Shown here one piece after another: positions 129 to 34,243 of a DNA stretch of 34,434 nucleotides. This DNA comes from a bacterium (GTDB lineage: Bacteria > Bacillota > Clostridia > Lachnospirales > Lachnospiraceae): assembly GCA_023666335.1 (NCBI GenBank), contig JAMPCE010000023.1, positions 1 to 34,434 on the forward strand, in the 5' to 3' direction. The first letter of the stretch is position 1. The number at the start of each line of letters is the position of its first letter. The notes under the pieces are model-generated. The model was not told the DNA's origin. It did no database searches and saw nothing but the letters and a program-made list of their open reading frames with translations. Made by a program: the position numbers and the translations under genes.

Positions 129-142
129 ATAACATGCGATAT
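129..142. repeat. ATAAC-N4-GTTAT palindrome copy (9/10), spans the PP2C start codon
   Basis: ATAAC-ATGC-GATAT, with nine of ten arm positions matching. The ATG of the phosphatase gene (134-136) lies in the spacer, so a protein bound here would cover the translation-start region. Confidence 0.5.
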
Positions 143-850
143 TTAACGGGTGTATACTGGAACCGTGGAAGTCTGTCCGAAAAGAATCAGGATGCGGTTT
201 TGGTGCAGCAGGTTCTGACCCGCAGAGGGCGGGTGCTCCTCGCGGCGGTATGCGACGGCATGGGCGGCGTTTCGCAGGGAGAATTGGCGGCTGCCTATGC
301 GGCGGAACGGCTCCAGGAGTGGTTTTATCTGGAATTTCTTCGGATGCTTGCAAGCAAAAAGCGTATCTGGGCGATCCGCAGGTCGCTTGACAGGCTGGTC
401 TGGCATATGCAGCAGCAAATGCGGCGTTACGGAGAAAAGGAGGGGGTGTCACTGGGGACGACCATGACGGTTCTGGTGATGTGGGAAAAAGCATGGATCC
501 TCTGGCATCTGGGCGACAGCAGGATTTACAGACTACGGCGCGGGCGTATCAGGCAGTTGACAACGGATCATGCCTGCGGTGCGGGAAAACTGACGAAGTG
601 TGTGGGAAGCTTCGGCGACTTTGTGCCGGAACACATGACGGGCATTCCCGGCGCAGGGGATGGCTTTCTTCTGTGCAGCGACGGATTCAGGCGGCAGGTC
701 ACGGCAGGAGAGCTGGGAGATGTTCTGGCACCGGAGCAGATGCAGGATGAGGCGCAGATCGAGAGGCGGCTTCGGGAGATCGGGGAAGCGTGCATGAAGC
801 GGGGAGAGCGGGATAATCTGTCGGCGGTGTATGTGAAAGCATTGCCTTAG
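134..850 (+). CDS. PP2C-family (PPM) protein serine/threonine phosphatase
   Basis: A 238-residue cytosolic metal-dependent phosphatase that should remove phosphate from Ser/Thr residues. The PPM motifs occur in order: NQDA near residue 18, VCDGMGG near 38-44 (metal-binding Asp), LWHLGDSRIY near 120, LCSDGF near 180, and ERDNLSAV near the C-terminus (second metal Asp). There is no membrane segment. It ends 49 bp before a Hanks-type kinase on the same strand, so the pair probably forms a reversible phosphorylation module, comparable with PrpC/PrkC (known family; pairing inferred). The start at 134 gives the complete first motif; the purine-rich AGGA at 116-119 is rather far upstream (14 nt). 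The start codon lies within a copy of the recurrent ATAAC-N4-GTTAT palindrome. Confidence 0.9.
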   Translation: MRYLTGVYWNRGSLSEKNQDAVLVQQVLTRRGRVLLAAVCDGMGGVSQGELAAAYAAERLQEWFYLEFLRMLASKKRIWAIRRSLDRLVWHMQQQMRRYGEKEGVSLGTTMTVLVMWEKAWILWHLGDSRIYRLRRGRIRQLTTDHACGAGKLTKCVGSFGDFVPEHMTGIPGAGDGFLLCSDGFRRQVTAGELGDVLAPEQMQDEAQIERRLREIGEACMKRGERDNLSAVYVKALP

Positions 851-899
851 ATGTGTATTGATATGATGGGTGGTTTACATAATATCTAGGAGAAAAAGA

Positions 900-1814
900 A
901 TGCGAGAGAAGAGCATAGAAACAGATAAACAAATAGGAAAATACCACATTCTGCGGAAGTTAGGGCAGGGCGGCGAGGGAGTCGTGTATCTGGCGGAGGA
1001 TACGGGGCTTAACAGGCGGGTGGCATTAAAGAGGCTGCGCGCGGAGGAGGATCTGGGGGAGCTGATCCGGCGGGAAGCGGCTTTTCTGCGGGATCTGCGG
1101 CATCCTATGCTGCCGGTGGTCTACGACCTTTTGTTTGAGGATGGCTGGTATCTGGTCATGGAATATATTGAGGGCATAAGTTTACATAACTATATAGAGG
1201 CGAAAGGCAGCGTGCGTGAGGAACAGGCATGTCTTTGGGGAGAAGCGCTTTTGGATGTGCTGATTTACCTCCACACAAGAGAAACACCTGTTATTTATAG
1301 AGATCTGAAACCGGATAACATCATGGTATGTCGGGACGGCAGTCTCAGGCTGATTGATTTTGGGGCGGCTTTTTTCAAAAATTTTGGAGAGCGGCGGGAT
1401 GAGCGGGCAGCGTGGACGGCAGGCTATGGCGCGCCGGAGCAGATGGGAGCGGCGGGCAGGGAAGCTTATGCGGATGAGCGCAGCGATATCTATGCGTTTG
1501 GCAGGACGCTCTATTACATGGTGACGGCAGCGGATCCGGGGAAGCCGCCTTATGCGGCGCTTGCGCCCTCTCTGTATGATCCGCTGCTGTCTCCGGGTTT
1601 TGAACAGATGCTTGCGCGCTGTACGATGGAGGATGCGGACGAGCGATATCAGGTGGCGGCGGAGGTTTGGCACGACCTGCGGGAACGCCGAACTTGGCGG
1701 CGGGGTACGGGAAAAAGGGGGTTCTTGCGCTGCATTGAGAAGCAGATATTTCTGGCACAGCGTCCGGCACGGACTGAGAGTTTCTGTTGTCTTACGGATT
1801 CTTTTCCTATATAA
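900..1814 (+). CDS. Hanks-type serine/threonine protein kinase, soluble
   Basis: A 304-residue eukaryotic-like kinase. Visible landmarks: glycine-rich loop LGQGGEGVVYLAED, VALK lysine, catalytic loop YRDLKPDN (Tyr in place of the usual His of HRD), magnesium-binding DFG in LIDFGAA, and APEQMG near the activation-segment end. ATG at 900 follows AGGAGA with good spacing; an in-frame GTG at 870 is less likely. Unlike PrkC/Stk1 kinases there is no transmembrane helix and no PASTA repeats. After the kinase domain (about residue 260) there is a short, basic, Cys-containing tail of low apparent conservation, and its last codons overlap the promoter of the next unit. The tail may be a truncated remnant. 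The likely partner is the PP2C phosphatase just upstream. Confidence 0.9.
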   Translation: MREKSIETDKQIGKYHILRKLGQGGEGVVYLAEDTGLNRRVALKRLRAEEDLGELIRREAAFLRDLRHPMLPVVYDLLFEDGWYLVMEYIEGISLHNYIEAKGSVREEQACLWGEALLDVLIYLHTRETPVIYRDLKPDNIMVCRDGSLRLIDFGAAFFKNFGERRDERAAWTAGYGAPEQMGAAGREAYADERSDIYAFGRTLYYMVTAADPGKPPYAALAPSLYDPLLSPGFEQMLARCTMEDADERYQVAAEVWHDLRERRTWRRGTGKRGFLRCIEKQIFLAQRPARTESFCCLTDSFPI

Positions 1815-1815
1815 T
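1787..1815 (+). promoter_or_regulatory. Predicted sigma-A promoter for ispG-polC
   Basis: TTGTCT (1787-1792), a 17-bp spacer, and TATAAT (1810-1815). It overlaps the last codons and the stop codon of the kinase gene. Predicted start is near 1822, leaving about 170 nt of untranslated leader before ispG. Confidence 0.65.
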
Positions 1816-1883
1816 AAGATGAAAAGAAGTTCTAATTGCTCACAGCAGAGGCTGCTTCGCAAAGAACTTCTAAGTTTCATCTT
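1816..1883 (+). repeat. Long hairpin with repeated core, copy A (ispG leader)
   Basis: The outer arms AAGATGAAA (1816-1824) and TTTCATCTT (1875-1883) are perfectly complementary. The inner arms AGAAGTTCT (1825-1833) and AGAACTTCT (1863-1871) are also perfect. A small stem AGCAG/CTGCT sits in the apical part. Bases 1837-1869 recur with one mismatch at 1939-1971. Confidence 0.75.
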
Positions 1884-1910
1884 GGAGAATGCCAAAAGCG
1901 GGCATTCTCC
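1884..1910 (+). repeat. Perfect 10-bp stem hairpin in the ispG leader
   Basis: GGAGAATGCC (1884-1893) pairs with GGCATTCTCC (1901-1910) around a 7-nt loop. No T-run follows, so a simple terminator is unlikely. A related GAGAATGC/GCATTCTC hairpin occurs at 10639-10657. Confidence 0.7.
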
Positions 1911-1933
1911 GCATAGTAGAGATTATGAGAAAG

Positions 1934-1983
1934 CCTGATGCTCACAGCAGAGGCTGTTTCGCAAAGAACTTTATCATATCAGG
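1934..1983 (+). repeat. Repeated core, copy B, with arms reaching the ispG ribosome site
   Basis: The 33-nt core 1939-1971 matches copy A (1837-1869) except for one C-to-T change. Flanking CCTGAT (1934-1939) can pair with ATCAGG (1978-1983). The right arm overlaps AGGGAGG (1981-1987), the ispG Shine-Dalgarno, so folding could mask the ribosome site. The arms differ from copy A yet remain complementary, which hints at a conserved fold. Confidence 0.6.
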
Positions 1984-1992
1984 GAGGCAGAC

Positions 1993-3054
1993 GTGGGAAC
2001 GCACAGAGAAAGCACGAAAGTCGTCAGGATCGGCGACAGAAAGATAGGCGGCGGGAATCCGATTCTGATCCAGTCCATGACGAATACGCCCACGCAGGAC
2101 GTGGAGGCGACGGTGGCGCAGATCCTGCGCCTTGAGCAGGCGGGATGCGAGATCATCCGCTGCACGGTGCCGGACGAGGCGTCGGCGCATGCGCTTGGGG
2201 AGATCAAAAAGAGGATTCATATCCCGCTGGTGGCGGATATTCATTTTGATCATCGAATGGCGATCGCGGCGATCGAAAACGGCGCGGACAAGATTCGCAT
2301 CAATCCGGGCAACATCGGCGGCAGGGAAAAGGTGGCAGCGGTCGTTAAGGCGGCGGCGGAGCGGCGGATCCCGATCCGTGTAGGGGTCAACAGCGGTTCT
2401 CTGGAGCGCGATCTTTTGGAAAAGTACCACGGCGTGACGGCGGAAGGCATCGTGGAGAGCGCACTGGATAAAGTGAGCATGATCGAGGGCTGCGGATATG
2501 ACAATCTGGTGATCAGCATCAAGTCGTCGGACGTGATGATGTGCGCCCGGGCGCATGAACTGCTGGCGGCAAAGACAGCTTACCCGCTGCATGTGGGTAT
2601 CACGGAAGCGGGCACCGTGGCGGGCGGCAATATCAAGTCCGCCGTGGGGCTGGGCATCATCTTACATCAGGGGATCGGCGATACGATTCGGGTGTCCCTG
2701 ACGGGGGATCCCGTGGAAGAGATCAAGAGTGCGAAGCTGATCCTGCGCACGCTGGGGCTTAGGAAAGGCGGCATCGAGGTGGTTTCCTGCCCTACCTGCG
2801 GCAGGACAAAGATTGATCTGATCGCGCTGGCAACGCAGGTGGAGGAGATGGTGCAGGATATGCCGCTTAACATCAAGGTGGCAGTCATGGGCTGCGCAGT
2901 GAACGGACCGGGAGAAGCCAGGGAAGCCGATATCGGCATTGCGGGCGGCATTGGCGAGGGGCTTTTGATCAAAAAGGGCGAGATCGTAAAGAAAGTGCCG
3001 GAACATTTGCTCTTAGACACTTTACGGGAGGAGCTTTTGCACTGGGATGAGTAA
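1993..3054 (+). CDS. ispG: 4-hydroxy-3-methylbut-2-en-1-yl diphosphate synthase (flavodoxin/ferredoxin)
   Basis: A 353-residue iron-sulfur enzyme of the MEP isoprenoid pathway that converts MEcPP to HMBPP. The N-terminal TIM-barrel section carries [10 protein letters not shown] and later GVNSGSLE. The C-terminal [4Fe-4S] part carries CPTCGRT and [11 protein letters not shown], giving the three expected cluster cysteines. The start is GTG at 1993, set by AGGGAGG (1981-1987); the protein begins with the family-typical region and full length is retained. The stop overlaps the polC start by 8 nt (ATGAGTAA), indicating translational coupling. Upstream dxr/rseP, common partners in Firmicutes, are absent here and replaced by the phosphatase/kinase pair. 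Confidence 0.96.
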
Positions 3055-6000
3055 AGCGTTTTTTGAGGTCTTTCCGACCTTAAAACTGGATACGGGGCTG
3101 AAAGATCTGTTCGACGGGGTCATGGTGGAGAAAGTGACCAGCACGAAACGGAAAGATTTTCTGCGCGTTTATATCGCTTCGGAGCATCTGATCGCCAAGG
3201 AGGATGTGTTCCGGGTGGAGCGGGAGATCGGCAGGCAGTTTTTCCCGAACATGCTTGTCACGGTCAAGTTTTATGAGCATTTTACGCTTTCGTCACAGTA
3301 CGATCCCGAAAAGCTGATGGATGCCTACGGGGAGAGTATCCTGTTGGAGTTGAGAGAGGCGTCTCCGGTGGAGTACAATCTCTTCAAGCGGGCGGATATC
3401 ACGTTTTCGGAACATACGCTGCGGCTGGCTGTGGAAGATACGGTGCCCGGTCATGAGAGATCGCAGGAGCTTGTCAGGATCCTGGAAAAAATATATAACG
3501 AGCGTTGTGGAATCCCCGTGCATGTCAATGTTACCTATAAGGAGCGGTCTGTGGGGAAGCGGCGGGAGGAGGACGAACATCGGCTTGCCATGCAGGTGGC
3601 GGAGATCTCGGCAAGGGCGGGATATCGGTCGCAGGGGCAGGCGTCTTATCCAAATAACATAACCGGTGATATTGAAAAGGGCGGCTTGCCGGCATATCCG
3701 GGAAACGCAGGGACAGGAGACGCGGATGCGGTGCGGGCGGTTTCGTCTGCATCGGCGCCGTTTCCGGAGGATGGCGCAAAGAAAGCGGCTGTGTCTGCTC
3801 CGACGCCGTTTCCGAAAAAATCAGGAAAGTGGTCGGACGGCGGCAGGGATTTCAAGCGCGCCCTGAAACGTTCCGACAATCCGGACGTGATCTACGGCAG
3901 GGATTTTGAGGAAGATGCCATTCCCATTGAGGATATCATCGGAGAGATGGGGGAGGTGGTCATCCGCGGCAAGGTGATCCGCATGGACAAGCGCGAGATC
4001 AAGAACGAGAGAACGATCCTGATCTACGACGTCACGGACTACACGGATACCATGACGGTGAAGTTTTTTGCGCACAACGATCAGGTAAATGAAATAACGG
4101 ATGTTATGAAAGAGGGCGTCTTTGTCAGGATCAAAGGCATGACGGCGGTGGACAAGTTCGATCATGAGCTGACCATCAGTTCCGTGGCAGGAATCAAAAA
4201 GATCGCGGATTTTACGACGTCCAGAGAAGACCGCAGCATCCGAAAGCGGGTGGAGCTCCACTGTCACACAAAGATGAGCGATATGGACGGGGTCTCCGAG
4301 GTGAAAGATATCGTGAAGCGCGCTTACAAGTGGGGGCATCCTGCAATCGCCATCACGGACCACGGCGTGGTGCAGTCCTTTCCGGATGCGAACCATGTGT
4401 GGGAGGATCTGTGGAAAGCCGAGAAAGCGCGCTGCAAGGAAGCGGGAGAGCCGGAGCCGGACAAACAGGGCTTTTTCAAGGTGATCTACGGCGTGGAGGC
4501 TTATCTGGTGGACGATCTGCATGAGATCGCCACAAATGAAAAAGGACAGGATTTTAAGGCGGATTTTGTGGTCTTTGACATTGAGACGACGGGCTTTTCT
4601 CCGGTGCAGAACCGGATCATCGAGATCGGCGCGGTGAAAGTGTGCGGAGGAAAGATCGTGGATCGGTTTTCCACGTTTGTGGATCCGCTGACTCCCATCC
4701 CGTTTGAGATCGAGAAACTGACAGGAATAACAGATGATATGGTAATGGGCGCGGAGCAGATCGACGCGGCGCTGCCCCGGTTTCTCGCCTTTTGCGAGGG
4801 CTGCATCTTAGTTGCGCACAACGCGCAGTTCGATATGAGCTTTATCATGGAAAACTGCGACAGACAGGGGATCGCGCATGATTTTACTTATGTGGATACC
4901 GTGGGGATCGCAAGGCTTATGCTGCCGAACCAGAAAAAGCATACGCTGGATGCGGTGGCAAAAGCGCTTAACGTATCGCTGGAGAACCATCACAGGGCGG
5001 TGGACGACGCGGAGGCGACGGCGGAAATCTTCGTAAAGCTGATCCCCATGATGGCGAAAGAGGGCATCACCACTCTTGCCGCGATCAATGAGCGGGGCAA
5101 GGCAAGTCCCGAGATCATCGGGAAACTCCCTACCTACCACGCGATCATTCTGGCAAAAAACAATGTGGGCCGTATGAATCTGTACCGTCTGGTCTCGGAA
5201 TCCCATCTGACCTATTTTGCGGGGCGGCCGGGACGACCCCGGATCCCCAAGAGTCTGCTCGTGCAGTACCGCGAGGGGCTGATCCTCGGGAGCGCCTGCG
5301 AGGCGGGAGAGCTTTATAGGGCGCTCCTGGAGCAGAAATCGGATGCGGAGATTGCAAGGCTTGTGAATTTTTACGACTATCTGGAGATCCAGCCGCTCGG
5401 CAACAACCAGTACATGATCGAGTCGGAGCGGGTGCCTGCCGTGCAGTCTATGGAGGATATCAAGGAGATCAATCGGCGGATCGTGCGGCTGGGCGAGCAG
5501 TTTCATAAGCCGGTGGCGGCTACCTGCGACGTCCACTTCTTAAATCCGGAGGACGAGGTCTATCGGCGCATCATCATGGCGGGGCAGGGTTTTCCCGACG
5601 CGGACAACCAGGCGCCTCTGTATCTGCGCACCACGGAGGAGATGCTTAATGAGTTTGCGTACCTTGGCAGCGATAAGGCGGAGGAAGTGGTCATCACCAA
5701 CACCAACCTGATCGCGGATATGATCGAGGTGATGAGTCCGGTGCGGCCCGACAAATGCCCGCCCGTCATAGCGGACAGCGACAAGCAGCTTAAGGATATC
5801 TGTTACAATAAAGCGCATGAGCTGTACGGGGAGACGTTGCCGAAGATCGTGGAAGAGCGGCTGGAAAAGGAACTGCACTCCATCATTTCCAACGGCTTTG
5901 CGGTGATGTATATTATTGCGCAGAAATTAGTATGGAAATCCGTTGAGGACGGCTATCTGGTAGGCTCCCGCGGTTCCGTGGGGAGTTCCTTTGTGGCAAA

Positions 6001-7651
6001 TATGGCGGGGATCACGGAAGTCAATTCCTTAAGTCCGCATTATCTCTGCCCGAAATGTCATTACTATGACTTCGACTCCGATGAGGTGAAAGCCTACGGC
6101 GGCGGCGCAGGCTGCGATATGCCGGACAAGGACTGTCCGGTCTGCGGGACGCCTCTCAGGAAAGAGGGGTTTGATATCCCGTTCGAGACGTTCCTTGGCT
6201 TCAAGGGGGACAAGGAGCCGGATATCGACTTGAATTTTTCGGGGGAATACCAGAGTAAGGCGCATAAATATACGGAAGTGATCTTCGGGAACGGGCAGAC
6301 CTACCGGGCGGGCACGATCGGCACGCTGGCGGACAAGACGGCTTACGGCTATGTGAAGAATTACTATGAGGAGCGGGGCAGGCACAAACGGGCATGCGAG
6401 ATTAACCGCATCGTGACGGGCTGTACGGGGATCCGCAGGAGCACGGGGCAGCATCCCGGCGGCATCGTGGTGCTGCCGATGGGAGAGGATATCAATTCCT
6501 TCACGCCGGTGCAGCATCCCGCAAACGATATGGATACGGACATCATCACGACGCATTTTGATTACCATTCCATCGACCACAATCTGTTGAAGCTGGATAT
6601 TCTGGGGCATGATGATCCGACCATGATCCGTATGCTGCAAGATCTGACGGGGATCGATCCTGTTGCGATCCCTTTAGACGATACAGGTGTGATGTCATTG
6701 TTCAAATCCACGGAGGCGCTCGGCATTACACCGGAGCAGATCGGCGGATGTAAGTTAGGGTGTCTCGGCATTCCGGAGTTTGGAACGGAGTTTGCCATGC
6801 AGATGGTCATAGAGGCTAAACCGCAGTGTTTTACCGATCTGGTGCGTATTGCAGGATTAGCGCATGGAACCGATGTATGGCTTGGAAACGCACAGACGTT
6901 GATCGAGGAAGGAAAAGCGACCATTTCCACAGCGATCTGCTGTCGTGACGATATTATGATCTATCTGATCCAGATGGGGGTAGAGCCGGCGCTGTCTTTT
7001 ACGATCATGGAAAGCGTCCGTAAGGGAAAAGGATTAAAGCCGGAGTGGGAAGAGGCGATGCTTGCCGCAGATGTACCGGACTGGTATATCTGGTCGTGCA
7101 AAAAAATCAAGTATATGTTCCCCAAGGCGCATGCGGCAGCCTACGTCATGATGGCATGGCGTATCGCCTACTGCAAGATCAATTACCCGTTAGCCTACTA
7201 CGCGGCTTATTTCAGCATCCGCGCCTCGGCGTTCTCCTACGAGCTCATGTGTCAGGGAGAGGCGCATCTTGAACGCATCATGGCGGATTATAAGCAGCGG
7301 AGCGACGAACTTTCCAAGAAAGAGCAGGACAGTTATCGGGATATGAAGATCGTGCAGGAAATGCACGCGAGAGGCTTTTCCTTTGTGCCGATCGACCTTT
7401 TTACCGTGCAGGCAAAGCTGTTCCAGATCGTGGACGGGAAACTGATGCCCTCCCTGATCAGCATAGACGGTTTGGGGGACCGCGCGGCGGAAAGCATCGT
7501 GGAAGCGGTAAAGGACGGACCTTTCTTAAGCAAAGACGATTTCAGAGATCGGACCAAAGCGTCAAAGTCGATCACGGATCTGATGGATCAGTTGGGGATC
7601 TTGGGGGATATCCCCGAGTCGAACCAGATCAGCATCTTCGACCTGGCGTAA
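3047..7651 (+). CDS. polC: DNA polymerase III alpha subunit, PolC type
   Basis: A 1534-residue Gram-positive replicative polymerase. Order: N-terminal domain; a low-complexity Ala/Pro/Gly linker around residues 195-270 with a near-duplicated [22 protein letters not shown] segment; OB fold (about 290-390); PHP domain starting [14 protein letters not shown] near 402; inserted DEDDh proofreading exonuclease with FDIETTG near 510, [10 protein letters not shown] and [10 protein letters not shown]; polymerase core with GSRGSVGSS near 972, a Cys pair region CPKC...CPVC, and the catalytic [11 protein letters not shown] near 1057; C-terminal helix-hairpin-helix near 1480. It is somewhat longer than the usual PolC of about 1440 residues, mainly through the linker. 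It overlaps ispG by 8 nt. Three copies of the 14-bp palindrome lie in its first 1.7 kb. Confidence 0.98.
4094..4107. repeat. ATAAC-N4-GTTAT palindrome, exact arms, inside polC
   Basis: ATAAC-GGAT-GTTAT lies within coding sequence for the OB-fold region. One-mismatch copies lie nearby at 3659-3672 and 4727-4740, so polC carries a small cluster. Confidence 0.5.
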
Positions 7652-7673
7652 TATAGATGAGGAGGAGAAAAAC

Positions 7674-8264: not shown

Positions 8265-8278
8265 ATACCACATGTTAT
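8265..8278. repeat. ATAAC-N4-GTTAT palindrome copy (9/10) directly after a stop codon
   Basis: ATACC-ACAT-GTTAT starts at the base following the TAA of the cytidylate-kinase-like gene and lies 24 bp upstream of the -35 box of the ABC-transporter promoter. Confidence 0.5.
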
Positions 8279-8302
8279 TGTATACAATGATACAAGTTTT
8301 CC

Positions 8303-9208: not shown

Positions 9209-9877
9209 ATGTTGATGATATTGCAAAGATATGGTCTGATGCTGCTGGCAGCGCTCGGGCAGACGTTGCTTTTAACATTACTGTCGTTATTTTTCGCGAT
9301 GATCATTGGTATGATATTCGGTCTGATGAATGTGGGAAGCAACAGAGTGTTTAATTTTATCGGGACTGTCTATGTGGATGCGGTGAGGGGCGTGCCCCTC
9401 ATCGTGCTCGCCTACTTTATCTATTTCGGCGTGCCGACGGCGATTCAGGGGATTGGATTTGAAACGTTTCGGCTGACGGCTCTGCAGGCGGGCACGATCG
9501 CACTGTCGATGAACTGCGGCGCATATATGGCGGAGATCATCCGCGCGGGGATCCAGAGCGTGGACAGAGGACAGATGGAGGCGGGCAGAAGCCTTGGACT
9601 CTCCTACAGTGCGGGCATGGCGCTCATTGTCGTGCCGCAGGCGATTCGCACGATGATCCCTTCTATCATCAACCAGTTTATCATCACCTTGAAAGATACG
9701 TCTATCCTCTCCGTGATCGGGTTCCCGGAGCTTACGAATGTGGGTAAGACGATCATGGGAAATACCTTCAAACCATTGCAGGCATGGGCGATCATCGGCA
9801 TCATGTATATGGTGGTCATCGTCACGCTCAGCAAGATTTCCAAGAAGATCGAGAGGAGGGTGAACCGTGGCAGATAA
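9209..9877 (+). CDS. Amino-acid ABC transporter permease
   Basis: A 222-residue inner-membrane permease of the HisMQ/GlnP family with about five hydrophobic segments. The N-terminal half carries [11 protein letters not shown], typical of this family. The ATPase-docking EAA loop is seen as [28 protein letters not shown] sequence near residues 115-140. It follows the binding protein by 20 bp and overlaps the ATPase gene by 11 nt, so translation is probably coupled. Only one permease is present, so it likely works as a homodimer. Confidence 0.93.
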
Positions 9878-10696: not shown

Positions 10697-10710
10697 ATAA
10701 CGCATGTTAT
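10697..10710. repeat. ATAAC-N4-GTTAT palindrome, exact arms, upstream of tRNA-Glu
   Basis: ATAAC-GCAT-GTTAT lies 43 bp upstream of the TATAAT box of the tRNA gene, a position suited to an upstream regulator or architectural site. Confidence 0.55.
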
Positions 10711-13466: not shown

Positions 13467-14657
13467 ATGAATAAGGAATTGATGGAGGCGCTGGAGATTC
13501 TGGAGAGGGAAAAGGAGATCAGCAAGGATACCCTCTTTGAGGCCATCGAAAATTCATTGATCACCGCCTACAGGAATCATTACGGAAAGGCGGACAATGT
13601 GAAAGTGGAGATCGACAGGGAGACCTGCGATTACTACTGTTATGCGGAGAAGGAAGTCGTGGAGGAAGTGGAGGATCCGGTGATGCAGATTTCACCCGAG
13701 GATGCCGCTGAGATCGACCCGGCAGCCAAGGTGGGCGATATCGTCCGCGTCGAGATCCGCTCCAAGGAATTCGGCCGCATCGCCACCCAGAACGCCAAGA
13801 GCGTGATCTTACAGAAGATCCGCGAGGAGGAGCGTAGCGTCATCTATAACCAGTATTTTGAGAAAGAGAAAGATGTGGTGACTGGCATCGTGCAGCGTTA
13901 CATGGGAAGAAACATTTCCATTAATCTGGGCAAGGCGGACGCCATCTTAAATGAGAACGAGCAGGTAAAGAGCGAACATTTCCGCCCCACCGACCGCATC
14001 AAAGTATACATTTTAGAAGTGAGAAACACACCCAAGGGACCAAGGATCTTAGTGAGCCGTACGCATCCGGAACTTGTGAAGCGTCTCTTTGAGTCCGAGG
14101 TGACGGAGATCAAGGACGGCACGGTGGAGATCATGAGCATTGCCAGAGAGGCGGGCAGCAGGACGAAGCTCGCGGTGCGCTCCAACAACCCGAATGTGGA
14201 CGCGGTGGGCGCCTGCGTGGGCATCAACGGCGCCAGGGTCAATTCCATCGTGGATGAACTCTGCGGCGAAAAGATCGACATCGTAAACTGGGATGAAAAC
14301 CCCGGCAACCTGATCCAGAATGCGCTTTCTCCGGCAAAGATCGTGGCGGTATTTGCAGATCCCGATGAAAAGACGGCAAAGGTCGTGGTGCCGGATTACC
14401 AGCTCTCTCTCGCCATCGGTAAAGAGGGACAGAACGCCAGACTGGCTGCCCGACTGACGGGATATAAGATTGACATCAAGAGCGAGACGCAGGCAAAGGA
14501 TGCGCCCGGCTTCCGCTACGAGGACTATGTCTACGACGACGAGGAGTATGACGAGGAGGGGTACGACGAGGACGGCTATGATGAGGACGGCTACGACGAG
14601 GCGTACGATGACGATGCCGCAGCCTATGAGCAGGAAGAGGCGGTAGAAGAGGATTAG
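13467..14657 (+). CDS. nusA: Transcription termination/antitermination factor NusA
   Basis: A 396-residue RNA-polymerase-associated factor controlling pausing, termination and antitermination. N-terminal RNAP-binding domain (1-125), S1 domain (about 130-200, VGDIVR then [18 protein letters not shown]), KH1 and KH2 (about 230-345, with [18 protein letters not shown] and [16 protein letters not shown]). The last 45 residues form a very acidic Tyr-rich tail with [15 protein letters not shown] repeats, instead of the acidic-repeat domains of E. coli. ATG at 13467 follows AGGAGGAC. Two bases separate its stop from rnpM. Confidence 0.97.
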
Positions 14658-18068: not shown

Positions 18069-18082
18069 ATAACATATGTTAT
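18069..18082. repeat. Perfect palindrome ATAACATATGTTAT between infB and rbfA
   Basis: A fully symmetric 14-bp copy, 4 bp after the infB stop codon. A second half-site ATAAC-GCAT follows at 18083-18091. No independent rbfA promoter is evident. Confidence 0.65.
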
Positions 18083-20404: not shown

Positions 20405-20418
20405 ATAACATGCGTTAT
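20405..20418. repeat. ATAAC-N4-GTTAT palindrome, exact arms, directly after the truB stop
   Basis: ATAAC-ATGC-GTTAT begins one base after the TAA of truB and is the exact reverse complement of the copy at 10697-10710. Confidence 0.6.
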
Positions 20419-27233: not shown

Positions 27234-27239
27234 TAATAA

Positions 27240-27253
27240 ATGACATTTGTTAT
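27240..27253. repeat. ATAAC-N4-GTTAT palindrome copy (9/10) after pnp
   Basis: ATGAC-ATTT-GTTAT starts 6 bp after the pnp stop and lies 26 bp before the ATG of the REC-HD-GYP gene, surrounded by A/T-only sequence. Confidence 0.5.
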
Positions 27254-27279
27254 TATATAAGACGATGAGGAGATCAGTC

Positions 27280-28350
27280 ATGAAGGATTCCGTTATCTTG
27301 ATCGTGGACGATGTAGATATCGACAGAGGGATTCTGTGTGAGATTTTTTCGGATTATACGACGCTGGAAGCAGCAAACGGCAGAAGAGCCGTTGAGATCA
27401 TCAAGGAGGACCCGGATCGCATATCCGCGGTTCTCCTTGATTTGGTTATGCCCGTGATGAACGGACTGGAAGTGATGGATGAAATGAGAAAGAACGGCTG
27501 GCTTTCCCACATTCCGGTCATTTTGATCTCGGGCGAGGCGACGCTTGCGGCGGAGCGTATGGCGTATGAGATGGGCGCGACCGACGTGATCCACAAACCT
27601 TATGACAGCGTTGTGATCAAGCGGCGGACGCAGAATATCATGGAACTGTATTACAACAAGCGCCATCTGGAAGAGATGGTGGAGTTACAGACAGGCGTTT
27701 TAAAAAAGCAGGCTGTGGAATTGCAGCGCATCAATAACCGCATCATCGACACGATGAGCAATGTGGTGGAGTTTCGGAATCTGGAATCGGGCGATCATGT
27801 CAGGCGGGTAAAACAGTTTACGCGCATTCTGGCAGAGCAGGTGGCGGAGCTTTATCCGGAGTACCATCTGGATGAGGAGATGATTGACGTGATCACTGCC
27901 GCAGCGGCGATGCACGATGTGGGTAAGATCGCGATCTCGGACGCCATTCTCCTAAAGCCGGGCAAGCTCACGGAAGAAGAGTTTACCGTGATGAAGACGC
28001 ACACCACAAAGGGATGTGAGATTATCGAGATGCTGGAGGATATCCAGGAGGGCGAATACGGCAGAATGAGTTATGAGATCTGCCGCTATCACCATGAGCG
28101 CTACGACGGGGGAGGCTACCCCGAAGGCTTGAAAGGCGAGGAGATCCCCATCGCTGCGCAGATCGTCTCCGTGGCGGACGTCTATGACGCGCTGGTGAGC
28201 GACCGATGCTACAAGAGCGCCTATGCGCCCGCGGAGGCGTACGATATGATCATGCGGGGCGAATGCGGCAAGTTCTCGCCCAAGATCCTGACCTGCCTTG
28301 CCCGCGCGCGGGAAGCGTTTGAGCGGGAAGCAGCGCAAAACAAGGGCTGA
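27280..28350 (+). CDS. Response regulator with HD-GYP phosphodiesterase domain
   Basis: A 356-residue cytosolic regulator. The receiver domain (about 3-120) has VDDVDIDR, the phospho-acceptor Asp in VLLDLVMP, and the Lys in HKPYD. A helical linker (about 125-165) is followed by an HD-GYP domain: HVRRVKQFTR, AAAMHDVGKIAI (HD), HTTKGCEII, YHHERYDGGGYPEGL (GYP region) and VADVYDAL. It probably hydrolyses cyclic di-GMP or a related dinucleotide on phosphorylation; no cognate histidine kinase is encoded nearby. ATG at 27280 is preferred (GAGGAG 7 nt upstream) over TTG 27247 and ATG 27265. Its stop is one base from the stop of convergent pyrI. Confidence 0.93.
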   Translation: MKDSVILIVDDVDIDRGILCEIFSDYTTLEAANGRRAVEIIKEDPDRISAVLLDLVMPVMNGLEVMDEMRKNGWLSHIPVILISGEATLAAERMAYEMGATDVIHKPYDSVVIKRRTQNIMELYYNKRHLEEMVELQTGVLKKQAVELQRINNRIIDTMSNVVEFRNLESGDHVRRVKQFTRILAEQVAELYPEYHLDEEMIDVITAAAAMHDVGKIAISDAILLKPGKLTEEEFTVMKTHTTKGCEIIEMLEDIQEGEYGRMSYEICRYHHERYDGGGYPEGLKGEEIPIAAQIVSVADVYDALVSDRCYKSAYAPAEAYDMIMRGECGKFSPKILTCLARAREAFEREAAQNKG

Positions 28351-28351
28351 C

Positions 28352-28792
28352 TTACCACTGGCTGGAGGATTTGCTTGCCTTTTCCTCACAGTATTTGCAG
28401 CGGTAGATCTCCTTTTCCTCGTCTGCGAGCACGAAGATGTGCGGCAGTTCCTGTTCGATGGAAGTGATGCAGCGGGGATTCTTACATTTGATGACGTTGT
28501 GGATCTCCTGCGGGAGTTCCAGCTCCTTTTTATCGACGATCTCCCCGTCCTTGATGACATTGACGGTAATATTGTGATCGATCACAGCCAGGATATCCAG
28601 GTTCAGGGTGTTGATGTCGCACTCCACCTTGAGGATGTCCTTTTTTCCTTTCTTGTTGCTGCGGGCGTTCTTGATGATCGCCACCGTGCAGTCCAGCTTA
28701 TCCAGATTCAGGTGATGATAGATTTCAAGGCTCTTGCCCGCCTCGATGTGGTCGAGCACGAAGCCCTCCTCTATTTTTCCCACATTTAACAT
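28352..28792 (-). CDS. pyrI: Aspartate carbamoyltransferase regulatory subunit
   Basis: A 146-residue allosteric subunit that binds nucleotides and bridges PyrB trimers. The N-terminal part matches the family (MLNVGKIEEGFVLDHI, GKSLEIYHHL). The zinc domain has Cys103-x4-Cys108 in CKNPRC and Cys132-x2-Cys135 in CKYC, the complete four-Cys set. ATG follows AAAGGAGG and lies 13 bp after pyrB. It ends convergently one base from the HD-GYP gene with no terminator between them. Confidence 0.96.
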   Translation of the reverse strand: MLNVGKIEEGFVLDHIEAGKSLEIYHHLNLDKLDCTVAIIKNARSNKKGKKDILKVECDINTLNLDILAVIDHNITVNVIKDGEIVDKKELELPQEIHNVIKCKNPRCITSIEQELPHIFVLADEEKEIYRCKYCEEKASKSSSQW

Positions 28793-28805
28793 AGTGTTCC
28801 TCCTT

Positions 28806-29717
28806 TCACGCTAATTCAAGAAGTGTTAAGATCAGCGCCATCCGCACATACACCCCATACTGCGCCTGCTTGAAGTAAACAGCCCGCGGATCGTCGTCCA
28901 CCTCCACGGAGATCTCATTGACCCGCGGCAGGGGATGGAGCACCAGCATGTCCTCCCTGGCGGCGGACAGCTTCTCCTTGTCAAGGATATAGAAATCTTT
29001 GAGTCTCACATAATCCTCTTCGTTGAAGAAACGCTCCCGCTGCACTCTGGTCATGTAGAGAAGATCCAGATTCGGTATGCAGTCTTCCAGCCGGATGACC
29101 TCTTCGCAGGAGACGCCCTTTTCTTTCAGCATATCCGTGATATAGTCGGGGACTTTTAATTCCGGCGGCGAGATGAAGACAAAGCGGATGTCAGGGTAGC
29201 GGATCAGCGCATTGATGAGGGAATGCACCGTGCGCCCGAATTTCAGGTCGCCGCACAGACCGATGGTGAAGCCGCCGAGCTTTCCCTTCAGGGAACGGAT
29301 CGTGAGGAGGTCTGTGAGGGTCTGGGTGGGATGCTGGTGCCCGCCGTCGCCCGCGTTGATCACGGGGATGCCGGAGCGGCTTGCCGCGACCATAGGAGCG
29401 CCCTCCTTGGGGTGGCGCATGGCGCAGATGTCCGCGTAGCAGGAAATGATGCGGATCGTATCCGACACGCTCTCGCCTTTGGAGGCGGAGGAGGATCCGG
29501 CGTCAGAGAAGCCAAGGACCTGTCCGCCCAGATTCAGCATGGCGGCTTCGAAACTTAAGCGGGTGCGGGTGCTCGGTTCGTAGAAGCAGGTGGCGAGCTT
29601 TTTCCCCTCACAGGCATGGGCATATTTTGCGGGATCGGACTCGATCTCGTTTGCCAGGTCAAAGAGCCTGTCCAGTTCTTCCACGGAAAAATCAAGCGGG
29701 TTCATCAAATGTCTCAT
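28806..29717 (-). CDS. pyrB: Aspartate carbamoyltransferase catalytic subunit
   Basis: A 303-residue enzyme for the committed step of de novo pyrimidine synthesis: carbamoyl phosphate plus aspartate to carbamoyl aspartate. Carbamoyl-phosphate site [12 protein letters not shown] near residues 50-61, then [22 protein letters not shown] near 130, TRVQRERF, and the C-terminal [13 protein letters not shown] at 29717 is set by AAGGAG (29734-29729). Only 29 bp separate it from a strong terminator hairpin belonging to the end of the upstream nitroreductase unit, leaving no space for a separate promoter. Together with pyrI it forms an E. coli-like pyrBI pair. Confidence 0.97.
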
Positions 29718-29746
29718 GGGATATCACACTCCTTTTTGTAATGGCG

Positions 29747-29780
29747 AAAAAAAGTAGAAGAGAAATTCTCTTCTACTTTT
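29747..29780 (-). terminator. Strong intrinsic terminator / candidate pyrBI attenuator
   Basis: Minus-strand stem AAAAGTAGAAGAG with CTCTTCTACTTTT (13 bp, A-rich loop) followed by seven T. It starts 4 bp after the nitroreductase stop codon and ends 29 bp before pyrB. E. coli pyrBI has a UTP-sensitive attenuator at almost the same distance from pyrB (known); a regulatory role here is inferred. Confidence 0.8.
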
Positions 29781-29784
29781 ACGA

Positions 29785-30327
29785 TCATGATTGATAGGAT
29801 AACAGTTCCTCCACAGGCTTTCTGCGGGGAGCGGCGGGCGACTCGTCGGGATAACCGATCGGAATGAGCGCCACGAGTTCCCTGTCTTCGGGAAGCTGTA
29901 AGAGAGATTCCGCCGCGCTCTGGTCAAAGAGACCGAGGATCACGGAACCAAGCCCTTTCTCATAAGCAGCAAGGCAGAAACTCTGGGATGCGATGCCGGC
30001 GTCGTACATCTGCCAGCCGCTGCCTTTGGGAGTGCTGAAAGAACCGTCGCGTTCATAACCGCTGCGGTTTTTGATGATGGTAACTGCGATCAGCACGGGA
30101 GCCGCCGCGATGATATCGCCGTTGGGGGGATACAGGGAAGAGCACTCTCTGGCGATCTTTTCTTTCAATGCGCCCTCCACCGCGATATAACGGGTGATCT
30201 GTGTGTGTTTCCAGCTCGGAGAGTAGGATGCGGTCTCAACAAGCTCGGCGATCAGTTCATGGGAGACGGGATCGGCTTTAAATTTGCGAATGCTTCTGCG
30301 GCCGAGGATACAGTCTTTAGCGGTCAT
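29785..30327 (-). CDS. Nitroreductase family protein
   Basis: A 180-residue flavin (FMN) oxidoreductase of the nitroreductase fold. The start shows the typical LGRRSIRKFKADPVSHELI and ASYSPSWKHTQITR; the C-terminal half has YDAGIASQSFCLAAYEKGLGSVILGLF and VALIPIGYPDE. The substrate is unknown; such proteins reduce quinones, nitroaromatics or flavins. ATG follows AAGGAGG. It has its own promoter and a strong terminator. Because pyrB starts just after that terminator, the nitroreductase transcript may also be the pyrBI leader. Confidence 0.92.
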   Translation of the reverse strand: MTAKDCILGRRSIRKFKADPVSHELIAELVETASYSPSWKHTQITRYIAVEGALKEKIARECSSLYPPNGDIIAAAPVLIAVTIIKNRSGYERDGSFSTPKGSGWQMYDAGIASQSFCLAAYEKGLGSVILGLFDQSAAESLLQLPEDRELVALIPIGYPDESPAAPRRKPVEELLSYQS

Positions 30328-30399
30328 ACGAAAACCTCCTTATGATGTGGTCTGGTCAATGATTGTTTACTATATTTTGTGGATATCGATCCTGCGACA

Positions 30400-30428
30400 A
30401 TTGTAGCACAAAGGCGGGGCGGTTGCAA
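30400..30428 (-). promoter_or_regulatory. Predicted promoter of the nitroreductase gene
   Basis: Minus-strand TTGCAA (30428-30423), 17-bp spacer, TACAAT (30405-30400) with an extended -10 TG. The leader is about 65 nt. Confidence 0.65.
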
Positions 30429-30446
30429 GGAGAACATAAGTGGTGC

Positions 30447-30475
30447 TTGTGAAAGAGGGCGCCTTGTGCTATAGT
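30447..30475 (+). promoter_or_regulatory. Predicted promoter of the PH-domain gene
   Basis: TTGTGA (30447-30452), 17-bp spacer, TATAGT (30470-30475) with an extended -10 TG. It is back to back with the nitroreductase promoter, 18 bp between the -35 boxes. Confidence 0.65.
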
Positions 30476-30516
30476 AAACAGGGAGTTTTTATCGAAAAAT
30501 AAGGGAGGAGACCGAG

Positions 30517-30930
30517 ATGGAAGAAAAACAGGAAACGATGAGGGAAGAGCAGACGGCTGGCGCCGTAGAGCAGTATGTGGAGAGAAAGCGCTGGCTCTTT
30601 TTCGGTCTGCCTTTCACCTTTACAAAATATACGATCAATGAGCGGGTGATCACGGTGGATTCCGGTCTGTTCAACACAACAGAAAACGACTGTTATTTAT
30701 ATAAGGTACAGGATGTGGAACTCAAGACCAGCCTGATGGAGCGCATCTTCGGGCTGGGCACGGTTGCCTGTTACACCGGAGACAATACCCACCCGAAACT
30801 GTTTCTGGAGCATATCAAACATGCGAAAGAGGTCAAGGATTACATTCTGCACACCTCCGAGGAGGCAAGGAGGAAACGGCGCACGCTGAACACGCTGAAT
30901 ATCGACGCGGATGATATTGATGCCGATTAA
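30517..30930 (+). CDS. PH-domain (bacterial, YdbS/DUF304-like) protein
   Basis: A 137-residue soluble protein. After a charged 20-residue start it shows a bacterial PH-like core: RKRWLFFGLPFTFTKYTINERVI, TVDSGLFNTTENDCYLYKVQDVELKTSLMERIFGLGTV and an end rich in Lys/Arg, typical of bPH_2 proteins, which often bind or associate with membranes. No membrane segment is visible, unlike YdbS itself. The C-terminus alternates Asp and Ile. ATG follows AGGGAGGAGACCGAG. Its TAA overlaps the TAA of the convergent gene by two bases (TTAA). A one-mismatch palindrome lies at 30683-30696. Confidence 0.85.
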   Translation: MEEKQETMREEQTAGAVEQYVERKRWLFFGLPFTFTKYTINERVITVDSGLFNTTENDCYLYKVQDVELKTSLMERIFGLGTVACYTGDNTHPKLFLEHIKHAKEVKDYILHTSEEARRKRRTLNTLNIDADDIDAD

Positions 30931-31355
30931 GGGCGGCGTTTGCGGTCGGGGCGCAGCGTCTCGTCGTTCTCGCGCAGGAGCCGTTCGAACAGCAGCCCGG
31001 TGAAAAACCAGCAGGGCGCGTAGTCTAAGCGGATCACTTTTTTGATGTTCCAGCGGGCGCGCTCGTAATTCCACGGGCAGAGGCTGCGGCGGTCCAGCCA
31101 CACTCCGGTGAGAAATTCTCCACTGTAGATCAGCGCTGTGTAGAGAAAGCCCCGGAACCAGAACGAGCGGTTTTTGACCAGGCGGCAGACGGGGGCAAAG
31201 AAAGCCATCAGTCCGTAGATGGGGAACATCCAGACGGAAGTGACGCCGGGAAGCCTTAAGTCGCGCTTGCGAAAGGCATGAAACGCCGTAAAGGAGATTT
31301 CCAAAAACCACCCGAGCAGACCGCATTGTATGAAGTTGTGCAAAAATTTTTTCAT
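30927..31355 (-). CDS. CmpB-like putative ABC-transporter permease family membrane protein
   Basis: A 142-residue integral membrane protein with about four hydrophobic segments. It has the features I associate with the ABC_trans_CmpB (DUF1113) family: GWFLEISFTAF near residue 15, GVTSVWMFPIYGLMAFFAP, GEFLTGVWLD and CPWNYERARWNIKKVIRLDY then a C-terminal membrane helix. Despite the family name no ATPase partner is nearby and transport is unproven. ATG at 31355 is chosen because it starts MKKFLHNFIQCG, like family members; no clear Shine-Dalgarno precedes it, and an in-frame ATG at 31424 would overlap folC. It ends convergently with the PH-domain gene. Confidence 0.78.
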   Translation of the reverse strand: MKKFLHNFIQCGLLGWFLEISFTAFHAFRKRDLRLPGVTSVWMFPIYGLMAFFAPVCRLVKNRSFWFRGFLYTALIYSGEFLTGVWLDRRSLCPWNYERARWNIKKVIRLDYAPCWFFTGLLFERLLRENDETLRPDRKRRP

Positions 31356-31391
31356 GGAAACAGTATGGGCGGACTGGCAGCATTCTATACA

Positions 31392-31405
31392 ATAACAGGT
31401 GTTAT
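31392..31405. repeat. ATAAC-N4-GTTAT palindrome, exact arms, in the folC/CmpB-like divergent gap
   Basis: ATAAC-AGGT-GTTAT (extending to AATAAC/GTTATT) lies 17 bp before the folC ATG and about 36 bp upstream of the minus-strand gene. It overlaps a possible TACAAT -10 at 31388-31393, a good position for an operator. Confidence 0.6.
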
Positions 31406-31422
31406 TAAGAGGAGTAGGGCAC

Positions 31423-32754
31423 ATGAACTATCGGGAAGCCATGAACTATATAGAAGAACTTAAGTTCCTCGGCAGCGTCATGGGTCTGGAGACGATGCGG
31501 CAGTTGTGCGCGCGTCTGGGCGATCCGCAGGAAAGCCTGCAATTCGTCCATATTGCCGGAACGAACGGCAAAGGATCGACCCTCGCCTACGTCTCCACGG
31601 TGATGCAGACGGCAGGATATCGGGTGGGCAGATACCTTTCCCCGACCGTGCGGGATTACAGAGAGCGGTTTCAGGTGGACGGCAGCAAGATCACACAGTC
31701 CGGTCTGTGCCGCTATCTGGAGCCGGTAAAGGAAGCGGCGGAGGCGATGGCGGCGGAGGGGCTTGCGCACCCCACCCTTTTCGAGGTGGAGACTGCGGTG
31801 GCGTTCCTGTTTTTTCTGGATAAAGCCTGCGATCTGGTGGTGCTGGAGACGGGGCTCGGCGGCGCGCTGGATGCGACCAATGTGGTAAATAACACGCTGG
31901 CGGCGGTTTTTTCTTCTATCAGTATGGATCATATGGAGATCCTTGGCGATACCCTGGAAGAGATCGCGCTCGTCAAGGCGGGGATTATAAAAAACAAGTG
32001 TTATGTCATATCAGCCAGACAGACGCCCGAAGTCATGAAAGTTCTGCGGCAGTCGGCGCTTCTGAAAAAGGGGAAGTTTTTGACGGCGGATGCCGCGCGG
32101 GCAAAGCAGATCCGATACGGCTTGACAAAGCAGAGCTTTTCCTATGACCGTTATAAGAATCTGGAAATTTCCATGACGGGACAGTTTCAGATCGAAAATG
32201 CCGTACTGGCGGTGGAAACGGTCATGGCGCTCACAAGATGCGGGTTCAAGGTGCCGGAGGAGAAACTGCGGCAGGGAATGCTTGCGGCGAGATGGCAGGG
32301 ACGTTTCGATGTGATCGCAAAGCGCCCTTTCGTGATCGCAGATGGCGCCCACAACGAAGATGCGGCAAAAAAATTGGCGGAAAGCCTCCGTTTTTATTTT
32401 ACAAATCATAAAATTATTTATATAATAGGAATGCTGCGGGACAAAGAGTATGACAAGGTGATCCGTGCGACCTTTTCCCTGGCGTCCCATATCATCACCG
32501 TAACGCCGCCGGTGGGAGAGCGGGCGCTTTCCGCGATCGATCTTGCCCGGACGGCAGGGGAATATCACGACGCCGTGACAGCGGCGGACAGTGTGCAGGA
32601 GGCGGTGGAGATCGCCTATCTCCTTGCGGGAAAGGATAAGGACGCCGTGATCGTCGCTTTCGGTTCCCTCTCTTATCTGGGAGAACTGATGGATACGGTA
32701 GAGCACAGAGATACGATCAGGAGAGACACTCATGGCAGATCAGATCAAGATTAA
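31423..32754 (+). CDS. folC: Folylpolyglutamate synthase / dihydrofolate synthase
   Basis: A 443-residue ATP-dependent ligase adding glutamate to folates (and possibly to dihydropteroate). The P-loop is in [16 protein letters not shown] near residues 43-57; [25 protein letters not shown] and [15 protein letters not shown] follow in the expected order. The C-terminal Mur-ligase-like domain has [18 protein letters not shown] at 31423 follows AAGAGGAG; a GTG at 31399 is rejected because it lies before that site and within a palindrome. The end overlaps folE by 23 nt. First gene of a folate operon. Confidence 0.95.
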
Positions 32755-33316
32755 GGAAGCGGTCAAAATGCTTCTGGAAGGAATCGGCGAAGACACACAG
32801 AGAGAGGGGCTTAAGGAGACGCCGGATCGGATCGCCCGTATGTACACAGAGATCTTTGCCGGAATGGAAGACGATGCGGCAAAGCATCTTTCGAAGACGT
32901 TTCCGGTGGAGAGCAATGAGATCGTCCTGGTAAAAGATATCACCTTTTATTCTATGTGCGAGCACCATTTCATGCCTTTTTACGGAAAGGCGCATATCGC
33001 ATACCTGCCAAACGGCAGGGTGGTGGGACTCAGTAAGCTGGCAAGGACTGTGGAAGTGTACGCCAAACGACCGCAGATTCAGGAACAGATGACGATCCAG
33101 ATCGTGGAGGCTGTCATGGAGCACTTAAGACCGCAGGGGGTGATGGCGATGCTTGAGGCGGAGCACACCTGTATGACCATGCGGGGTGTGGAGAAGCCGG
33201 GAAGCCGGACAGTGACGGTGGCAGCCAGGGGCTGTTTTCAGACGGATCCCAAGTGGCAGGATTTATTTTTCCGTATGCTGGCAAAAGAAAAACTGTATAA
33301 TCAGGATTTAATCTAA
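32732..33316 (+). CDS. folE: GTP cyclohydrolase I
   Basis: A 194-residue zinc enzyme making 7,8-dihydroneopterin triphosphate from GTP, the first step of folate synthesis. [22 protein letters not shown] near residues 70-92 holds the catalytic Cys-His pair; [22 protein letters not shown] and the zinc Cys in [10 protein letters not shown] follow. Complete length. ATG at 32732 follows CAGGAGAGACACTC inside the end of folC, so the two are translationally coupled. Confidence 0.97.
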
Positions 33317-33329
33317 CAAAATCCTGTGG

Positions 33330-33343
33330 ATAAACAGTGTTAT
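33330..33343. repeat. ATAAC-N4-GTTAT palindrome copy (9/10) between folE and folP
   Basis: ATAAA-CAGT-GTTAT lies 13 bp after the folE stop and 26 bp before the folP ATG. Confidence 0.45.
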
Positions 33344-33369
33344 CAAAAAACTTATGGAGGGTTGCAAAA

Positions 33370-34185
33370 ATGAGGATCGGACAGAGAGATTTTAGACCAA
33401 AGGGACATACCTATGTGATGGGAATCCTAAACGTAACACCTGATTCTTTTTCGGACGGAGGCAAGTACAATGATCTGGATCAGGCGTTATATCATGTGGA
33501 ACAAATGATAACGGATGGTATGGATATTGTGGATGTGGGCGGCGAATCGACCAGACCGGGCTATACGGTCGTTCCCGAGCAGGAGGAGATCGACAGGGTC
33601 GTTCCCGTGATCGAAGCAATCAAATCCAGATTTAATGTTCCGATTTCTCTGGATACCTGCAAGTCTGCGGTGGCAAAAGCCGGTATCGCGGCGGGCGCGG
33701 ATATGATCAACGATATCTGGGGCTTAAAATACGACGATAAAATGGCGCAGGTGATCGCGGAGGCAGGGCTTCCCTGCTGTCTGGGGCACAACCGCAAGGA
33801 CGCGCGATACACGAGTCTGATCGAGGAGATCCTCTGGGATCTGGAGTCTTCTCTGGAAGCGGCGCGCAATGCAGGTATCGCCTATGACAGGATCATTCTC
33901 GACCCGGGCATCGGCTACGGCAAGACTTACGAGCAGAATCTGGAGATCATAGACCATCTGCAAAATTTCCATTCACTGGGATCGCCGATCCTCATGGGGG
34001 CAAGCCGTAAGTCCGTGATCGGTATGGGGCTTGACCTGCCGGTGAACGAGCGCGTGGAGGGGACGATCGTCACGACCGTATACGGCGTACAGCACGGCGT
34101 GATGTTTGTGCGTGTGCACGACGTAAAGGAGAATGTACGCGCGGTCAAGATGGCGGAGGCGATCCGCGATGCTTATAAAAACTGA
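33370..34185 (+). CDS. folP: Dihydropteroate synthase
   Basis: A 271-residue TIM-barrel enzyme joining p-aminobenzoate to the pterin; the classic sulfonamide target. Motifs: MGILNVTPDSFSDGG (residues 17-31), GGESTRPG near 58, ISLDTCKSAVA near 94, DPGIGYGKTYEQNLEI near 180, MGASRKSVIG near 215, and RVHDVKENVRA near 250. ATG at 33370 is preferred because TGGAGGG precedes it; a GTG at 33337 is in frame but lacks a site. A one-mismatch palindrome lies in the gene at 33508-33521. folB follows after 79 bp. Confidence 0.96.
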   Translation: MRIGQRDFRPKGHTYVMGILNVTPDSFSDGGKYNDLDQALYHVEQMITDGMDIVDVGGESTRPGYTVVPEQEEIDRVVPVIEAIKSRFNVPISLDTCKSAVAKAGIAAGADMINDIWGLKYDDKMAQVIAEAGLPCCLGHNRKDARYTSLIEEILWDLESSLEAARNAGIAYDRIILDPGIGYGKTYEQNLEIIDHLQNFHSLGSPILMGASRKSVIGMGLDLPVNERVEGTIVTTVYGVQHGVMFVRVHDVKENVRAVKMAEAIRDAYKN

Positions 34186-34229
34186 GCGGGGCGCGGAAGA
34201 TCCGCATAGCCAAATTTGAAAGAAATTAT

Positions 34230-34243
34230 ATAACACATGATAT
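34230..34243. repeat. ATAAC-N4-GTTAT palindrome copy (9/10) upstream of folB
   Basis: ATAAC-ACAT-GATAT lies 44 bp after the folP stop, 21 bp before the folB ATG, inside an A/T-rich gap. Confidence 0.5.

Follow-up and report, generated by a model that had tools for sequence, protein, structure and literature searches.

A regionally clustered 14-bp palindrome, scarce beside the terminus, in a Lachnospiraceae genome

What is marked by a short palindrome that recurs along a bacterial contig, inside genes as well as between them? The window considered here is the whole of contig JAMPCE010000023.1 (34,434 nucleotides; assembly GCA_023666335.1), which is contig C33 of G000, a draft Lachnospiraceae genome of 3,100,932 bases (3.10 Mb) in 117 contigs, and the element in question is the 14-bp palindrome ATAAC-N4-GTTAT. 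A first-pass annotation had described the word as strongly over-represented in the window and had proposed a site for an abundant dimeric DNA-binding protein, either a global regulator or a nucleoid factor. We find that the sites are distributed regionally, being scarce beside the terminus (ter) and scarce in many other core regions. With modest confidence, we favour the explanation that ATAAC-RNNY-GTTAT is bound by a dimeric protein dedicated to it, which would mark regions of the chromosome in a mode resembling that of Noc or SlmA.

Excess and anatomy of the palindrome

Throughout, a site is a copy of ATAAC-N4-GTTAT whose arms carry no more than one mismatch, unless it is called exact, and counts were compared with dinucleotide shuffles, the backward word and permuted-arm words. 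The window holds 22 copies (six exact and 16 with one mismatch) against 0.40 expected, and the highest count in 100 dinucleotide shuffles of the window was four copies, bearing out the over-representation first described. All six exact and all 13 one-mismatch positions listed at that time were present, together with three that had been missed (3495, 9277 and 11795). Counting across the whole genome, a check proposed with the original claim, gave 76 exact copies against three of the backward word, and 65 against one when the spacer was restricted to RNNY. The excess therefore holds beyond controls in the genome as a whole, although it is regional rather than spread genome-wide.

The spacer had been said to tend to A at its first base and T at its last, and this was confirmed in the form RNNY: when GC skew was used to orient 43 exact sites, the spacer began with A in 34 and with G in nine, and ended in T in 25, C in 11, A in four and G in three. 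The consensus of 237 sites from the 2.04 Mb of G000 read for site maps (66% of the genome) is W-W-A-A-ATAAC-RNNY-GTTAT-T-T-W-W, with ten strong positions, an inner purine/pyrimidine pair, two free central bases and outer AT-rich flanks. Two-fold averaging forces symmetry upon this consensus, but the unaveraged table of GC-skew-oriented sites is symmetric too. A dimer that reads two half-sites would be expected to leave such a layout. A directional site was considered and rejected: within the window GATAT right arms occurred in 5/22 sites and ATATC left arms in 0/22, but in the larger set of GC-skew-oriented one-mismatch sites the two variants were about equal (11/96 and 10/96), and the idea was therefore dropped. 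A palindrome count over the nusA loci of 80 relatives returned no convincing palindrome besides ATAAC-N4-GTTAT.

Regional distribution and the terminus

Across the 2.04 Mb read, sites are dense over about 0.5 Mb and near-absent from long core-gene stretches, including about 130 kb adjoining the terminus. The dense contigs are C11, C21, C27, C31, C33 (the window), C41, C43, C50, C54 and C67; one end of C24 and of C62 and the first 60 kb of C29 are also dense, and C58, C64 and C65 are fairly dense. The densest contigs carry 4-13 scored sites per 20 kb and many others 0-1, with the backward control reaching at most 4 per 20 kb. Together the dense regions (514 kb) hold 189 sites, where 19 permuted-arm words average 10.6 apiece, a ratio that is inflated because these regions were chosen by the motif. 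Contigs C1-C51 (1.72 Mb), for which the exact-site list is complete, were not chosen by density, and their 50 exact sites are also unevenly placed: 27 of 20,000 multinomial draws reached the observed chi-square, and about 1.12 of the 1.72 Mb is without an exact site (zones summed after seeing the data). When 5-mer gapped palindromes with spacers of 0-12 were ranked by their contrast between dense and sparse contigs, themselves picked by the motif, ATAAC N4 came first (43 in 446 kb dense against three in 1.22 Mb sparse), and the words ranked second and third, TAACA N2 and AATAA N6, are offset versions of this word.

The change from dense to sparse can be followed within a single contig. On C29 (206 kb), 21 sites fall in the first 60 kb and four in the next 147 kb, the latter stretch encoding pheT, leuS, ruvB, mutSL and mreB (here and below, genes were named by eye from translations or the order of open reading frames (ORFs), except for dnaA, parB, lexA and those scanned with Pfam). 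GC skew along C29 turns from positive to slightly negative over the last 25 kb, a sign of the terminus, and this is the side of the site-poor stretch.

Chromosomal position was referred to the complete genome G066 (CE91-St56; another genus, 7.29 Mb, dnaA at base 122), in which marker strands flip at about 3.60-3.65 Mb, taken as ter. Of 40 marker pieces searched on it, 39 were placed by best match (all but pheT; for dnaK and flhA an alternative place exists). The contigs that supplied these markers had been recognised as dense or sparse beforehand. Markers less than 0.12 Mb from the flip have a mean of 1.2 sites per 20 kb in G000 (n = 9, median 0), those at 0.12-1.6 Mb a mean of 6.5 (n = 21) and those farther than 1.6 Mb a mean of 2.6 (n = 9), the flanking zone differing both from ter (p 0.002) and from the rest (p 0.02).

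Conservation in a second species and taxonomic spread

The same regional pattern is found in G118, another species of the genus (G064, UBA7196, returned the same positions in profile and dnaA searches and is probably the same genome). Stretches of G118 were labelled from G000 before they were fetched, ten as dense, eight as sparse and two left unlabelled. Per 20 kb, the dense-labelled stretches hold 10, 9, 2, 9, 5, 8, 7, 4, 5 and 7 sites (mean 6.6), the sparse-labelled 1, 0, 4, 0, 1, 1, 0 and 0 (mean 0.9; one-sided Mann-Whitney p 0.0003) and the unlabelled 2 and 7. The comparison was not fully blind: some sites had been seen earlier in the dense stretches of folC, infB-polC, lepA, ligA and atpD, and the contigs of the sparse-labelled stretches had shown no ATAACANNTGTTAT site; the five dense-labelled stretches without earlier sightings hold 2, 5, 7, 5 and 7 sites (mean 5.2 against 0.9, p 0.003). 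Contig C20 of G118 carries the ter markers and a switch of GC skew from positive to negative, and its five stretches, all among the sparse-labelled, contain 1, 0, 4, 0 and 1 sites.

Alignment of G000 with G118 covered 278,075 positions, 83.1% of them identical, and included 60 sites. At these, identity is 92.5% in the arms, 79.2% in the four spacer bases and 80.2% in the flanks, against 81.4%, 80.4% and 82.0%, respectively, at 84 permuted-arm control sites. The arms are thus under purifying selection and the spacer is not. Conservation at orthologous positions, also proposed earlier as a check, was borne out: 45/60 sites are still a site in G118 against 25/84 controls (p 1e-7). Of two gaps compared, infB-rbfA holds a site in 10/29 clade relatives and truB-ribF in 0/29. 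Within the window, sites were further compared with the nusA loci of 17 relatives, a site being kept where a site lies at the aligned place. Those inside genes that recur in several of the 17 are at 4094, 11573, 11795, 15093 and 23170. The sites of the window, all from the motif scan and none assigned to a strand, are as follows.

4094..4107, exact site inside polC, with an aligned site in L028, L034, L041 and L049 of the 17 relatives
10697..10710, exact site between genes, following an ABC transporter gene; kept in L022
11573..11586, exact site inside a minus-strand membrane protein gene; kept in 9/17 relatives
18069..18082, exact site in the infB-rbfA gap, a gap with a site in 10/29 clade relatives and 0/33 others
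20405..20418, exact site in the truB-ribF gap, a gap without a site in 29/29 clade relatives and 42/42 others
31392..31405, exact site at the start of folC
129..142, one-mismatch site
3495..3508, one-mismatch site, new to the list
3659..3672, one-mismatch site
4727..4740, one-mismatch site
8265..8278, one-mismatch site
9277..9290, one-mismatch site, new to the list; kept in L022
11795..11808, one-mismatch site, new to the list; kept in 8/17 relatives
13630..13643, one-mismatch site in nusA; of the 17 relatives, kept only in L021
15093..15106, one-mismatch site; kept in L016, L023 and L024
23170..23183, one-mismatch site; kept in L016, L017, L019, L021, L023 and L024
27240..27253, one-mismatch site after pnp
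30683..30696, one-mismatch site
31991..32004, one-mismatch site
33330..33343, one-mismatch site
33508..33521, one-mismatch site
34230..34243, one-mismatch site

Relatives of the window by NusA are nearly all Lachnospiraceae, mostly metagenome assemblies, with UBA7054 and UBA7196 closest in the tree. This tree has 77 rows (the window and 76/80 loci, four loci shorter than 9 kb being left out), and all 15 site-rich rows (at least 4.5 sites per 20 kb at nusA) fall within one supported clade of 30 rows. Site density varies inside that clade and the site-rich label needs nine changes, implying frequent gain and loss, or else frequent sampling noise where loci are short. One of its rows, the named strain Bacterium 1xD42-87 (L020), has few sites in its nusA stretch. 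Among genus mates, 20/36 have an exact count at least three times the backward control, compared with 2/24 genomes from other families of the order, where sites are few (three against none, nine against three). Of 148 genomes from other genera of the family, G141 stands out (RNNY count 93 against 6) and G085 is weak (13 against 5); none of the remainder exceeds eight RNNY sites. G141 has at least 64 ATAACANNTGTTAT sites against one backward, on many contigs, but it was set apart rather than counted as a second case, since its centres favour ACCT/AGGT and, among the matches listed, its sites also lie near the ter genes ruvB and leuS. These may perhaps belong to a different regulator with a similar site.

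Candidate readers and competing explanations

Few systems are known that mark chromosome regions in a sequence-specific way. In the passages of PMC4726725 drawn on here, the Noc sites (NBS) of B. subtilis are a 14-bp palindrome present about 70 times per genome, the SlmA sites (SBS) of E. coli are palindromic and have a TetR-type reader, both sets are under-represented at Ter, and both are proposed to couple division to the final phase of replication. The matS sites of E. coli, GTGAC-RNY-GTCAC, number 23 and lie in the Ter region, according to the corresponding part of PMC3116907 (PMC4786541 gives further background on the field). As far as those passages describe these systems, the present sites are like NBS in being a 14-bp palindrome of comparable number (76 exact against about 70) that is scarce at ter, like SBS in being palindromic and scarce at ter, and like matS in being dispersed short palindromes limited to part of the chromosome, with a partly free centre. 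Packing by region, selection on individual sites and their scarcity at ter resemble the distributions of Noc and SlmA sites and, in part, of matS. The sequence, however, differs from that of NBS and SBS; G000 is without a separate Noc, and no TetR protein could be tied to the present sites. From matS it differs in that MatP is absent, ter is nearly site-free and exact sites number 76 rather than 23. Full-text literature, in a scope that mostly left out subscription journals and preprints, yielded no paper for the letters of the motif or for macrodomain palindromes in Clostridia, and PMC3692452, in the passages at hand, only speculates on a MatP-like system in Listeria.

Protein binding is suggested by the symmetry of the site and by selection; the proposed site for a dimeric DNA-binding protein gains support from the two-sided AT-rich flanks, the free centre and the purifying selection on arms rather than spacer. 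A role in chromosome layout or division timing, rather than at promoters, is suggested by the regional map together with the absence of a promoter preference. A dedicated dimeric protein of helix-turn-helix type would read ATAAC-RNNY-GTTAT as an operator-like site and, once bound, would coat or gather particular chromosome regions in one Lachnospiraceae clade while being nearly kept off the terminus. It may delay septum assembly over the late-replicating flanks, or organise them, and ter would stay free so that division could close over it. Its mode would be Noc- or SlmA-like, the protein being neither. Whether this amounts to a third, unrelated terminus-avoiding system of nucleoid occlusion or chromosome domains, with its own palindrome and an undiscovered DNA-binding protein in a Lachnospiraceae clade without MatP or a separate Noc, is a more tentative matter, which we would sooner doubt than assert.

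Several observations weigh against the Noc- or SlmA-like explanation. Noc and SlmA sites are reported, in the source passages, as depleted at Ter, whereas here much of the remaining chromosome is site-poor too. Positions in G000 are borrowed from a relative of another genus, G066, and the map has clear exceptions: the G000 contigs of atpD, glmS and clpB are dense, yet these genes are far from ter in G066; groEL, pcrA, cysS and ftsZ, within the flanking zone, have few or no sites; and era is dense (5.7 per 20 kb) though 0.11 Mb from ter in G066. The map is therefore patchy rather than one clean domain. In G118, the flhA stretch was labelled dense and holds only two sites, and the mutS-mreB stretch, beside ter and labelled sparse, holds four. 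The scans of G000, moreover, did not identify the binding protein. The neighbourhoods of atpD and glmS are dense in G118 too, so these exceptions to the G066 map are common to two species of the genus. Within the window, folC has a different place in G066 from its neighbours infB and polC.

A rival explanation is a global transcription factor whose regulon would be very large. The first-pass annotation had noted a copy in about nine of nineteen longer gaps between genes. Among script-called ORFs of the dense regions, however, about three quarters of the sites lie inside genes, and the non-coding share of 46/189 (24%) against 40/201 (20%) for permuted-arm words (Fisher p 0.33) is no more than an AT-rich word shows alone. 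With no extra non-coding preference, a classical promoter-based regulon is unlikely. Regional clustering, LexA boxes of canonical form and the absence from G000 of CRP/FNR over the Pfam cut-off likewise argue against a global regulator, so that this half of the original interpretation is weakened and we consider it improbable, despite the infB-rbfA gap site in 10/29 clade relatives and two to three neighbouring sites upstream of a ynbB-like gene in the near-empty ter zone of both species. The other half, a nucleoid or chromosome-organising factor, is favoured and sharpened to a regional set of sites that nearly avoids the terminus.

Such a factor could instead be a MatP/matS-like organiser, whose protein would condense or tether the ter-flanking regions into macrodomains with no part in division timing. 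Clustering at the density of the richest contigs and the enrichment of neighbourhoods 0.12-1.6 Mb from ter in G066 would fit, but a profile search found MatP in 0/7 genomes (of 14 control genomes, only E. coli was positive), and the terminus is nearly empty, whereas matS lies in the Ter region in the cited part of PMC3116907; we regard this organiser as unlikely, if worth keeping in mind. A nucleoid-associated or repair/replication protein, present in abundance, might have a weak site that was multiplied regionally, with no division or domain role; this would account for the graded site numbers in the genus and the graded density in the clade. It sits poorly with the sharp boundary within C29 and the strong selection on individual sites, and seems very unlikely. 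That the pattern is an artefact of composition or assembly is scarcely credible: G000 is a draft in 117 contigs, but the shuffled, backward and permuted-arm controls give low counts, the boundary lies within one contig, G118 has the same pattern and contamination is given as 0.03.

Several protein families were considered and rejected as the reader. ParB_N has a single match in G000, about 13 kb from dnaA (the control was positive in B. subtilis), which leaves no separate Noc and disfavours a ParB-family reader; with MatP absent as well, the reader would be another protein. The consensus of the Gram-positive LexA box shares the core AAC-RNNY-GTT, but the single LexA of G000 uses canonical GAAC-N4-GTTC boxes, found at lexA and recA. 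The PrfA-type CRP/FNR box is TTAACANNTGTTAA, with which the palindrome shares the inner core TAACANNTGTTA but not the outermost bases, and the three CRP/FNR matches in G000 are weak and below the Pfam cut-off. Scans for helix-turn-helix genes, crude, of low recall and covering 66% of G000, returned no convincing reader. Arms around a 4-bp centre are a common TetR geometry, and a TetR-family gene lies at C29:52322-52873 (L098:12322-12873), at the ter-side edge of the dense stretch, with a one-mismatch site at C29:52268 (L098:12268), 54 bp before its start and directly after a consensus-like promoter. No further copy of this gene was found in the loci examined, and it serves only as a lead. The sites are dense, conserved and testable, and a DNA pull-down with AATAACATATGTTATT should name the reader, whose identity should reveal how these gut bacteria, lacking both MatP and a separate Noc, time their division or mark regions of the chromosome.

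Some minor observations remain. Among 14 genomes, CRP/FNR-type matches of at least about 60 bits occur only in the site-poor G065, G066 and G068, and the six site-rich genus members tested have no match above 28 bits, possibly by coincidence. The site group in the ter zone is weak (C29:162225-162290, in L201; G118 L261:7955-7990), with its first two sites 19 bp apart in both species; the ynbB-like gene downstream is, by eye, of methionine gamma-lyase type, and the group is possibly a true operator. The site-poor stretch of C29 also contains a 40% GC island with an ORF of 1379 residues (C29:88411-92550, in L202), the beginning of which appears, by eye, Cas9-like.

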